Source of the DNA: an uncultured Clostridia bacterium
GTDB taxonomy: Bacteria; Bacillota; Clostridia; Christensenellales; UBA3700
Length of the DNA stretch: 64,000 bases
Direction of reading: 5' to 3'
Assembly (NCBI GenBank): GCA_947246685.1
Contig: CAMXSN010000002.1
Span: 209,485 to 273,484, forward strand
Below the pieces are notes generated by a model. The model was not told where the DNA came from. It searched no databases and was given only the letters and a program-made list of their open reading frames with translations. Shown piece by piece: positions 2,032 to 7,416 of the stretch (positions are counted from its first letter, which is position 1; the number at the start of each line of letters is the position of its first letter). The position numbers were made by a program, and so were the translations under genes.

Positions 2032-3534
2032 ATGGAAGATAACGTTCAGCAGACGGATATTCAACCGGATATTCCGCCGATAGCGGAAGAACACTCTGAC
2101 ACCGACCTTGTTAATACCAAATATTTGAAGAAAAAAGATTACGTACTTTTTTCTCTTGCGCAGTTTGCCGCCAGCGCGGTAACGGGATTGGTGCAGGGAT
2201 ATTTGTTGTTTTTTTATACGGTGTGCGTAAGCATACCTCCGGCGCAGGTAGGCGCTATGTTTTTGTTTTCAAAGATTTTTGACGGAATCAACGATCCTAT
2301 AATGGGCGTAATTGTAGATCGCACTAGGACTAAGTGGGGCAAGATGCGACCTTATCTGTTTTGCGCGGCTATTCCTTGGGGAGCGGTAACTATAATAATG
2401 TTTATGCCTGGATTATACAATTCGATGCCCTCTACGGCAGCAAAGGTTGCGCTGATGTGGGTGACGTATTTGCTCTATAGCGTAATGGCCACGGTAGTAG
2501 GCGTTCCGCTCAACGGTTTGCCTGCGGTTGCGTCTCCCAATATGGAAGAGAGGGCTAGGATCATCTCTATAAGCCGTATATTGGGCAGTTTGGGAGAACA
2601 AGCCGCGCTTGTGCTTTTGACGTTGTTCCTTATAGTTACAAACGACGATTATCCCAATTCTTATATGTTAATCGCATTGGTTATAGGAATTTTGGGACCT
2701 ATTTTGATGATGCTGGGCGCGAAATTTGTCAAGGAAAGATTGGAGCCGACAAGCAGAACGCCCAATGTGCTCGAAGGATTCAAATATATGTTCCGCAACA
2801 AGCAGTTTCTTTTGTTGATACTGTCCAATTTGCTGACGTTTTTCCGCAATCTTGTGTCTGCGGCGATAATTTACGTCGTATCCTATATTTATTGCAGAGG
2901 GTCTTTGCAAATCATTTTTGCGCTTCCGGGCGCAGCCGCGGCGATGATTGGCATGCTTATAGCGCCTAAACTTATGAAAATTATGGACAGCAAAAAACTG
3001 TTTATATTTGCCACTGCTTGGCAGTCGATTGCTTTGACTTTAGTGTTCTTTATGTATTTAATCGGCGGTAGGGCATGGTGGTTGGTGGCTATAGTAATGT
3101 TTGTCGCAATGATTCCCGTCGGCATACTCAACGTAATACCGCACTTGATGGCAACGGACACGTTGGATTATTGGGAAGACAAGACGGGAGACAGATGCGA
3201 GGGAATAACGTTCTCGTTGATGAGTTTGAGGTCAAAGGTATCGTCTGGATTGAAAGATTATACGATGAGTTATCTGTTGGTATTCTTCGGATTTTCACAG
3301 GCGTTGCCCTTCCTTAACGACCATACGCCCGTGCAGTCGGATTTTACAAAATTAGGAATTTTTTCTATTTATACGATTATTCCCGCGATACTCAACTTGG
3401 TATCTATAATACCCATTTTGTTTTATAAGTTGAGCGGCAAGAAGATGGCGGAGATTCAGAACAGACTTGCCGTCAAACGTCTTGAAGAGACAGCTAAGTC
3501 GCAAGACGACGCGTCTCAGAGCGAGAGCGTTTGA
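2032..3534 (+). CDS. GPH-family sugar:cation symporter (MFS)
   Basis: 500 aa, 12-TM-like; MelB/GPH-type motifs (FDGINDPIMGVIVDRTRTKWGKMRPYL); RBS GGGAGG upstream. Confidence 0.88.
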   Translation: MEDNVQQTDIQPDIPPIAEEHSDTDLVNTKYLKKKDYVLFSLAQFAASAVTGLVQGYLLFFYTVCVSIPPAQVGAMFLFSKIFDGINDPIMGVIVDRTRTKWGKMRPYLFCAAIPWGAVTIIMFMPGLYNSMPSTAAKVALMWVTYLLYSVMATVVGVPLNGLPAVASPNMEERARIISISRILGSLGEQAALVLLTLFLIVTNDDYPNSYMLIALVIGILGPILMMLGAKFVKERLEPTSRTPNVLEGFKYMFRNKQFLLLILSNLLTFFRNLVSAAIIYVVSYIYCRGSLQIIFALPGAAAAMIGMLIAPKLMKIMDSKKLFIFATAWQSIALTLVFFMYLIGGRAWWLVAIVMFVAMIPVGILNVIPHLMATDTLDYWEDKTGDRCEGITFSLMSLRSKVSSGLKDYTMSYLLVFFGFSQALPFLNDHTPVQSDFTKLGIFSIYTIIPAILNLVSIIPILFYKLSGKKMAEIQNRLAVKRLEETAKSQDDASQSESV

Positions 3535-3689: not shown

Positions 3690-4304
3690 TTATTGCGCTA
3701 TGTCGCTGCTTTTGCAGGAATATTGATTAAGATGATAAAAAAACGTAGATTGTTTCATGCTTAACGTATCCAGCGCCTCGTTGAGGGTGATACATTTTTC
3801 ATTGTATAGTTCGGCAATTTGTATAAAATCTTCCGAATATACCGTTTTCGGTCTTCCGAATCGAGTTCCGGATTTTTTTGCCAAGGCAATTCCTTCTGCC
3901 TGCCGTATGCGAATGTTCTGACGTTCGTTCTCCGCTACAAAGGATAATACCTGTAACACTATGTCGGATATAAATTTGCCTACGAGATTGTCGGCTTTTG
4001 TACGGGTGTCGAGCAGAGGCATGTCCAACACGAGTATGTCCGCTCCTATTTTATTAGTTATTTTGCTCCATTCGGCGATTATCGCGTCGTAGTTGCGCCC
4101 TAGTCTGTCGATAGATTTGATTACCAGCAGATCGCCTTGTTTCAGTCTTTTGACAAGCCGCGCGTATTCTTTTCTGTCAAAATTTTTTCCGCTTTGTTTA
4201 TCGCAGTAAATTTTGTTGCGCTGAATACCAAATTTAAGAAATTCTTCTATTTGTCTGCCTAGATTTTGGTCTGCGCACGAGACGCGCGCATAGCCGTATT
4301 CCAT
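3690..4304 (-). CDS. serine site-specific recombinase (resolvase/invertase family)
   Basis: MEYGYARVS...IDRLGRNYDAI...AENERQNIRIRQAEGIALAKKSGTRFGRPK; start moved to internal ATG (4304) preceded by AAGGGGGAAG. Confidence 0.88.
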   Translation of the reverse strand: MEYGYARVSCADQNLGRQIEEFLKFGIQRNKIYCDKQSGKNFDRKEYARLVKRLKQGDLLVIKSIDRLGRNYDAIIAEWSKITNKIGADILVLDMPLLDTRTKADNLVGKFISDIVLQVLSFVAENERQNIRIRQAEGIALAKKSGTRFGRPKTVYSEDFIQIAELYNEKCITLNEALDTLSMKQSTFFYHLNQYSCKSSDIAQ

Positions 4305-4392
4305 ATTTTCTTCCCCCTTGTAAGTGTTGTATGTAAAGGATAGCAAAAATATGTCGAATTTGGCAATATTTTCACGCAAAAAAATGACAAAT

Positions 4393-4418
4393 TCCAAAAA
4401 AAGTCTACTTTTCCTGAC
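4393..4418. repeat. candidate recombinase crossover site L (26 bp, imperfect 12-2-12)
   Basis: TCCAAAAAAAGT-CT-ACTTTTCCTGAC; inverted relative to site R, shares a 16-bp perfect inverted match with it. Confidence 0.6.
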
Positions 4419-4469
4419 CTATAAATTTTATCCAAAATAGGACAGATTAATACATAAAAATACAAATAA

Positions 4470-4498
4470 ATTATACATTATTAGTTTGTCGAAATCAA
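4470..4498 (-). promoter_or_regulatory. promoter inside candidate invertible segment, directed toward the recombinase gene
   Basis: Minus strand TTGATT-17 bp-TATAAT. Confidence 0.6.
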
Positions 4499-4507
4499 GA
4501 TTTTTCA

Positions 4508-4533
4508 GTCAGGAAAAGTAGACTTTTCCTGAC
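4508..4533. repeat. candidate recombinase crossover site R (26 bp, perfect 12-2-12)
   Basis: GTCAGGAAAAGT-AG-ACTTTTCCTGAC. Confidence 0.65.
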
Positions 4534-4832
4534 CAATGGCAAAAATCTCCGTTTAGACGGAAAATGTGCCAAATAGCGCGATTAAACGACGTATGAAATA
4601 ATCTTAAAATCGCGTTTTATGTCAAAATCGGGCAGTAGCGAATCGATTGGACAGTATAGCATAATTTTATGCTCGGCGGTTCGTATCGGCGGAGAGCCGA
4701 ATATCAATAAGCCTTTTTCTTATCATTCACTTTAATGGCGTCCTGCGGTGTATACTGCGGGGCGTCATTGCATTTGAGCAGCAAATTTATCCGTCAAGTT
4801 GTTAAAATGATTTATATATGTACTGAAAGCCG

Positions 4833-4861
4833 TTGACAAAGGGATAATTATATTGTAAGAT
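4833..4861 (+). promoter_or_regulatory. promoter of copper ATPase gene
   Basis: TTGACA-17 bp-TAAGAT. Confidence 0.6.
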
Positions 4862-4896
4862 AAAGAAAACCTAGTAAAAAAGTAGGGATTAAATTT

Positions 4897-7416
4897 ATGA
4901 AGAAAAAACTCAAATTCAATATAAGCGGAATGACTTGCGTAGTATGTTCCGGCACGTGTCAAAAAGAGATTTCCCGCCTGGACGGCGTAGAGTCTTGCAA
5001 CGTTAATTTTGCAAGCGGAGTAGCGCTAGTGGAATACGACGCCGAAAAAGTGAGCGACGCGGATATATACAACGCCGTCAATAAAGCCGGATATAAAGCC
5101 GTCGTTGCCGATATAAGCGATAATAAAAACGGAGGATTGGGCAAACTTGTAGCAATGCTTGCGCTGTCGCTGACGTTGTTGGCGTTTGCGATGCTAAGTA
5201 TGGTCGGCGTCAAATATCCGTCGTTTATTTCTCCCGAAGGAAATCCGATAGCTTATACCGCCGTGCAACTCGTCCTGTGCATACCCGTGATCGTAATGGG
5301 TTTTGGCTTTTATATCAGAGGATTTAGAAATCTTTTTAAGGCAAAACCGAATATGGACAGTCTCGTGGCTGTCAGCACGACGACGGCGTTTGTTTACAGT
5401 TTTGTCAATTTTATATTGATATGCGCGGGTGACGCGCACAAAGTACACAGTCTGTATTTTGAAAGCGTCGCGGTGATAATAGCGATAATATCGTTGGGAA
5501 AATTTCTTGAGAGCAAATCGCTGAAAAAGACGGGCGACGCGATTAAGCAGCTCACTTTGTTGACGCCTGCATACGCTACCGTCAAGCGCGACGGCGAATG
5601 GATTAAGATCGACAGCAAGGACGTTGCGGTTGGAGATGCGGTATTGGTAAGGGCCGGCGAAAGTTTTTGTTGCGACGGTATTATCGTCGAGGGGGAGAGC
5701 AACGTCAACGAGAGCATGCTGACGGGCGAGAGTATGCCCGTAGAAAAGAAGCAGGGAGACAGAGTTTTCGGAGGCACGGTCAACGGCAGCGGAATTTTGC
5801 AGTTTCAGGCAGACGGCGTAGGAGAGACGACCAAGCTGTCTAAGATAATCAAGTTGGTTGAAGACGCGCAGAACTCCAAGGCGCCTATTGCAAGGATTGC
5901 AGATAGAGTATCGGGAGTGTTCGTACCGGTCGTAATATCTATAGCGCTATTGGCGGGTATAATATGGTTGGTGACCAACGGTCTGCCTTTGGCGGTTAAG
6001 ATATTCGTAAGCGTACTCGTAATAGCCTGTCCGTGCGCTTTGGGACTTGCTACGCCGACAGCAATAATAACCGGTATAGGCCGAGGAGCGAAAGGCGGAA
6101 TACTTTTCAAAAATGCAGAAAGTCTGGAGAAATTAGGCGGTGTGGATACCGTCGTGCTGGATAAGACGGGGACGATAACTCAAGGCGCGCCGTCGCTTAC
6201 CGACGTTTACGTGCCAAATAATAAAGAATACGTGCTGTCTTTGGTGCGCTCGATAGAAAGCGTGAGCGAACATCCTATAGCAAAGGCTATAGTGGGCGCA
6301 ATACCTGCCAACGATATCGTAGCCGAGGTAAAAGTCTTGTCGGGATACGGTCTTGAAGGCGTAGCCGACGGTAAAAAAGTTCTGTGCGGCAATCTTGCGT
6401 TGATGGCAAAGTATGATATAGATTTTACAGGATTTTCAGATAAAGCAGACGAATATTCCGATCAGGGAAAGAGCATAATTGCAGTGGCGGTAGACGGCGA
6501 GGCGGCGGGAGTGCTTGCAGTAGCCGATACGCTTAAAGAGGACGGAAAAGATGCCGTATCTCAGTTGAAAAAGCTCAACTTGAGAGTCATACTTCTTAGC
6601 GGCGACAACGAAAAGGCAGCTCGCCACATTGCCGACAGCGTGGGTATAGAAGAGGTGATATCCAACGTGTTGCCGGAACAAAAGAGCGATGTAATAGGCA
6701 GGCTTATAAGCGAGGGAAGAAAGGTTGCTATGGTGGGCGACGGTATCAACGACGCTCCCGCGCTTGCAACTGCCAACGTGGGTATCGCAATGGGCGGCGG
6801 CAGCGATATCGCTATCGAGAGCGGACAGGTAGTCGTGGTAGGAGGACAGGTATCGGGCGTTGTAAGAGCCGTAAGGCTTGCGCGGGCTACTATGCGAAAC
6901 ATCAGAGGCAATCTTTTCTGGGCGTTTATATACAATATCATCGGCATACCGATAGCTTGCGGCATATTCTATCCGATCAACGGGTACACGATGAGCCCTA
7001 TGTTGGGCGGACTGGCAATGAGTCTGTCGTCCGTGTCCGTCGTGCTCAACGCTTTGAGATTGAATTTTTTCAAATTCGATAAACAGGTTGGATCTTCGGG
7101 AAAAGAAATCGGAGACGAGTGTCAGGCGTGTCCGGCAGACGCGTCCGTCTGTACGGTTGGAGAGAATAAGGAAAATCATGATTCAGATAATAATAAAGGA
7201 CAAAAGGAGGAAACAAATATGCAGATTATCGTAAAAGGAATGATGTGCTCTCATTGTGAAAACAGGGTCAACAAAGCGGTCGGCGCGTTGGACGGCGTGT
7301 TTTTCGTGCAGGCAAATCATGACGAAAATATCGTCAACGTGACTTTTGACGAAAATAAAGTGTCGTTGCAGGATATCAAGAATGCAATTGTAGCTCAAGG
7401 CTACGAGATTGAATAG
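4897..7416 (+). CDS. copA: Cu+-exporting P1B-type ATPase with N-terminal HMA and C-terminal fused HMA (CopZ-like) domain
   Basis: GMTCVVC HMA motif, CPC ([13 protein letters not shown]), [22 protein letters not shown]-terminal [14 protein letters not shown]. Confidence 0.93.
7219..7416 (+). CDS. putative internally initiated CopZ-like copper chaperone (in frame with copA)
   Basis: AAGGAGG at 7204-7210, 8 nt before in-frame ATG; product [27 protein letters not shown]..., 65 aa, a complete HMA domain. Confidence 0.5.

Follow-up and report, generated by a model that had tools for sequence, protein, structure and literature searches.

A gene for a small serine recombinase (3690..4304, minus strand) and one for a copA-type copper ATPase (4897..7416, plus strand) are separated by two inverted sites that enclose a promoter-like sequence, which raises the question of whether this locus is an invertible promoter switch and which gene such a switch would serve. 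The earlier note had described these elements from the letters of the window, i.e. the whole 64-kb stretch of DNA analysed, and its description was exact when re-read from the sequence. Site A (4393..4418, plus strand) reads TCCAAAAAAAGT-CT-ACTTTTCCTGAC, lies on the recombinase side and has a degenerate outer half, its left arm matching at 8/12 positions. Site B (4508..4533, plus strand) reads GTCAGGAAAAGT-AG-ACTTTTCCTGAC and is a perfect 12-2-12 palindrome. The cores are reverse-complementary, hence the sites are inverted, and the start codons at 4304 (minus) and 4897 (plus) are likewise correct. The 113-bp segment between the cores (4407..4519, no strand assigned) is classed as invertible on the basis of paralogous segments found in both orientations. 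A consensus scan places the embedded promoter TTGATT-17-TATAAT within it at 4470..4498 on the minus strand, pointing at the recombinase; by consensus scan only, a terminator-like stem (4546..4563, minus strand) on the copA side reads in the direction of the switch. Within the window there are exactly three copies of the half-site ACTTTTCCTGAC, all of them in this site pair. Sites A and B have inverted arms that match perfectly over 20 bp (4399-4418 / 4508-4527) and form the longest close inverted repeat of the window; shuffled sequence reached at most 15 bp (500 shuffles of 2 kb) or 14 bp (25 shuffles of the whole window), both below the 20-bp arms. Invertases of the Hin/Gin/Cin type act on 26-bp sites (hix/gix) in which a 2-bp core separates two half-sites of 12 bp each, and the outcome is inversion; a recombinational enhancer bound by Fis is a further mark of the Hin/Gin enzymes. 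The window pair has inverted 12-2-12 sites of this kind, and they surround an outward promoter as in an inverton.

The recombinase has 204 aa and is likely an invertase, as judged from Pfam, homology, catalytic residues and an AF2 model. It matches the Resolvase family (PF00239, E 7e-27), and its nearest solved relative by sequence is Sin (E 1e-28), followed by gamma-delta/Tn3, with Gin much weaker. The catalytic Ser and the Arg/Asp motif of small serine recombinases are present, with R7, S9, D66, R67 and R70 invariant among 15 relatives. The AF2 model (pLDDT 83) matches the structures of gamma-delta, Sin, Tn3 and Gin in fold (best Foldseek hits 1gdt, 1zr2 and 2r0q, prob 1.00) and shows the catalytic fold, the long E helix and a C-terminal helical DNA-binding domain, for which the three helices at 158-203 are a fitting candidate. 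The protein scored 46.7 bits against the NCBIfam Mpi model, below its cut-off of 272, and did not pass the cut-offs of the XisF and IS607 models. A second copy on contig C25 of the same genome (G000, a fragmented assembly whose contigs carry C-numbers) is 87% identical to the window copy; the two pair in the recombinase tree with moderate support (83/62) and group with the recombinases that lie next to a switch in G002, G005 and G011.

The earlier note proposed that the switch controls its own recombinase. This idea is partly supported: the embedded promoter faces the recombinase, here and wherever else a pair beside a recombinase has a visible promoter. The consensus scan also finds a second promoter-like site of the recombinase, TTGCCA-18-TATCCT (4337..4366, minus strand), fixed between the switch and the gene and outside the invertible segment, and a TTTGCTATTCTTTACAT-like sequence holds the same position before the recombinase in relatives, whether or not a switch adjoins the gene. 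Because this site is fixed, the switch would at most modulate the recombinase.

The other proposed target, copA, fares worse. A flipped promoter would face copA, and on the way from the switch to the gene the consensus scan shows no terminator on the plus strand, both of which favor phase variation of copper tolerance (ON/OFF) as the function of the switch at this locus. Against it, copA has its own promoter, TTGACA-17-TAAGAT (4833-4861), with an operator-like sequence ACCTAGTAAAAAAGTAGGG (together 4833..4893, plus strand), and these precede copA in 17/17 genomes of the genus. The conserved stretch beside copA begins ~300 bp beyond the switch, and the switch lies ~360 bp upstream of the copA start codon, compared with ~10-25 bp at the giant genes described below. 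The conserved promoter and operator-like sequence make copA control unlikely to be the point of the switch; copA, its neighbor on the site B side by ORF and genus comparison, is probably not the real target and was rejected as such on its own conserved promoter, and we consider copper-tolerance switching very unlikely. Elsewhere in the window, two paralogous transporter genes (17-838 and 2032-3534) share 84% identity where they align; the first matches only the C-terminal half of the second, probably because the window starts inside the first gene.

Searching G000 with the site core revealed approximately 17 site pairs (15 distinct exact pairs plus those at C20 and C3:15083), i.e. ~16 besides the window pair. 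The sites are always 88-90 bp apart, and each segment contains a promoter-like sequence of the TTGNNN-17-TATNNT type. The design is fixed: a site A with the outer half TCCAAAAAAAGT, the 88-90 bp with one promoter-like sequence, a near-palindromic site B, and a giant gene, with site B ending ~10-25 bp 5' of the giant start codon at nearly all other loci. The A/B asymmetry of the window pair recurs at nearly all paralogous pairs; C19 (L043 5031-5171) is an exception, where each of the two sites has an A-type outer half. The window-pair cores are CT/AG, compared with GT/AC at standard loci. A giant-gene switch at C3:15083-15212 (L095 10079-10217) has the core AT in place of GT, and a second AT-core giant-gene switch of G000, its pair partly degenerate, lies upstream of a 2052-aa gene (L096). 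At C1:59557-59678 (L099), a similar but degenerate pair lies ~150-270 bp upstream of an 888-aa gene that lacks the tail described below, and is possibly a decayed switch. No recognisable switch was present within 300 bp upstream of the giant tail genes at C2:311507-311905 and C11:26441-26839 (L097 and L098). The end of C25 overlaps C9 by the B site and 29 bp, which gives the order recombinase, switch and 1875-aa gene, and the same layout of recombinase, switch and giant gene is found in G002, G005 and G011. With two recombinase genes of one family and ~17 dispersed pairs, G000 has the Mpi-like combination of one putative invertase type and many promoters.

The proteins behind the G000 switches are 1,300-1,900 aa long with a signal-like hydrophobic stretch at the start, and hydrophobic, membrane-spanning-looking stretches were read by eye near the C-terminus. 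They are predicted to be secreted and membrane-anchored. Their outer regions are diverse and mostly unclassified, with weak matches to MBG, GLUG and List_Bact_rpt, and their C-terminal tail is nearly identical, with 17 occurrences in G000, fragments included. This highly conserved tail of 150 aa ends the giant proteins (L032:15023-15472; alignment A2). It matched no Pfam family above cut-off and no PDB fold at E < 0.001, as searched with an AF2 model of pLDDT 70 (the other four models reached ≤50).

The core claim of the earlier note, an invertible promoter linked to a serine recombinase, is supported by sister loci with the same sites that were assembled in both orientations in G000, as read from assembled contigs of a fragmented genome with possibly mixed strains. 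C22 and C24 carry the same unique segment of 90 bp in opposite orientations between identical flanks of 28 bp and 29 bp, and in C3 and C26 an identical 29-bp B flank is joined to opposite segment ends. The occurrence of two loci in both orientations, with identical flanks on separate contigs, indicates that inversion happens in the population. The promoter points towards the giant gene (ON) at C3, C17 and C24 and away from it (OFF) at the remaining G000 loci; beyond G000, one ON locus each was found in G016 (L113) and G011 (L111), their sister loci being OFF. At a GT-core locus the perfect arms extend over no more than 16 bp, which would not mislead an assembler working with typical k-mers, and a simple de Bruijn artefact is therefore unlikely. 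As the data are contigs and a metagenome bin may contain more than one strain, the two orientations could instead stem from gene conversion, strain divergence or assembly error, and not from ongoing enzyme-driven inversion. However, the breakpoints fall at the sites every time, the 88-90 bp spacing is conserved, the inner half-sites are almost identical, and ON/OFF differs between loci in three species, and we give such origins little credence.

Across the genus, 13/17 genomes have 9-34 tail genes each. The recombinase is found in 10/13 tail-bearing and 0/4 tail-less genomes (Fisher p = 0.015, for species that are related and not independent); it was not detected in three tail-bearing genomes, two of them ≥90% complete and one 70%. 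The half-site varies by species, being ACTTTTCCTGAC in G000, ACATTTCCTGAC in G002 and G005 (11-13 exact pairs) and of the TTTTACTGAC type elsewhere. In six species (G001, G004, G008, G012, G013 and G014, the last with 258 bp upstream read) the recombinase has no switch nearby, and in G001, G004, G008 and G012 A/B pairs precede several of the giant genes with upstream sequence read, while some have none. A recombinase without an adjacent switch, together with related pairs before giant genes, implies action in trans. Distant relatives (e.g. L078, L081 and L022), checked less thoroughly, show recombinase, switch and surface gene together with other half-sites; an exact-pattern search of distant family members yielded a single pair in G031, with no match in G078 or G079.

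Taken together, we propose that a dedicated serine invertase family very probably flips ~17 promoter segments in G000, mostly before giant surface-protein genes, as a form of surface phase variation. The recombinase would pair sites A and B, cut at the 2-bp core and religate after inversion, turning a segment of ~113 bp with one outward promoter, and transcription presumably follows the orientation of that promoter. One recombinase family would act in trans on all ~17 segments, and each giant protein could be switched ON/OFF independently, given that nearly all segments lie just before giant genes. The usual recombinase locus would consist of recombinase, switch and giant gene back to back, with the window locus a paralogous copy lacking the giant gene, where a flip would deprive the recombinase of its extra promoter, which would then face an untranslated stretch and copA. 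We infer that these sites are substrates of the window recombinase and that inversion still takes place at the window pair itself.

A transposon resolvase, with the sites serving as its res subsites or operators, would offer a different account of the locus. Resolvases of the Sin/Tn552 type resolve direct repeats at res, and Sin, the nearest solved relative, is itself a resolvase. Yet the cores here are inverted and not directly repeated, both orientations of paralogous segments are found, and the pairs precede host surface genes. Nor was a transposase noted among the ORFs neighboring the recombinase, so the locus does not have the Tn3/Tn552 arrangement of a resolvase with its res. The inverted cores and two-state sister loci led us to reject this reading, which is almost certainly wrong. 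Harder to set aside is a reading that concerns the window pair only, with the rest of the family active: the recombinase and switch would have been duplicated and the giant gene lost, leaving the sites inert or as operators that only bind the recombinase. The window pair is seen in a single orientation among assembled contigs and has no giant gene beside it, and neither blastn nor tblastn detected a giant-gene remnant between the switch and copA. In seven relatives (G001, G003, G004, G008, G012, G013 and G014) a giant tail gene directly precedes copA, ending 224-468 bp before it, and in G006 a transporter fragment does so; the gap before copA thus hosts giant tail genes in relatives and is a site of their recurrent gain or loss. 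Against a relic, site B is still a perfect palindrome, neither the window promoter nor the recombinase frame is disrupted, and both cores share the non-standard CT/AG, a match that independent decay would not preserve. Religation by serine recombinases needs matching cores, and because both cores changed alike, the CT/AG change would argue that the window pair was kept functional. We regard a relic as unlikely, though it deserves some weight, and favor a window pair that still belongs to the active invertase family. A more speculative and rather doubtful extension of this view is that the core dinucleotide serves as an address: GT, CT and AT switches would share half-sites and recombinases and religate only within their class, which would keep loci from recombining together. 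The CT pair of the window would then serve as a feedback switch of its own, adjusting the amount of master invertase and, through it, how often all the surface genes flip.

That one serine master invertase flips promoters at many loci is a textbook feature of Bacteroides. The G000 system has the 26-bp, inverted 12-2-12 sites of Hin/Gin/Cin, but differs from them in a recombinase nearer in sequence to Sin and gamma-delta than to Gin, in its short 113-bp segment and in its many loci. The Sin/Tn552-type resolvases are the nearest solved relatives by sequence and share the fold, whereas the sites here are inverted and bracket a promoter. The CwpV system is a single-gene switch operated by another recombinase type. 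In Clostridioides difficile, the invertible element controls the large surface protein CwpV (PMC2784873). The likeness is a large surface protein under an invertible element in a clostridium, and the differences are the many loci and the serine recombinase found here. The closest known system is that of Bacteroides fragilis, in which the serine recombinase Mpi is reported to govern 13 dispersed invertible regions (PMC4747536). Both combine a serine recombinase with invertible promoters at many scattered surface loci; unlike Mpi, the G000 enzyme fails the NCBIfam Mpi model, belongs to another phylum, uses another site sequence and targets giant proteins in place of capsule operons. One survey gives a median of 3 invertons for Clostridia-like gut genomes (PMC11892184), and the open-access papers that we searched contain no description of the G000 switch system. 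With ~17 matching switches, nearly all just before giant-protein genes, a dedicated enzyme can probably change the set of surface proteins that a cell displays. In an uncultured clostridial genus with 9-34 giant surface-protein genes per genome (13/17 genomes) and recombinase-type pairs before most of those examined, this would be a large surface-variation system in animal-gut bacteria, previously unreported in the open-access papers searched.
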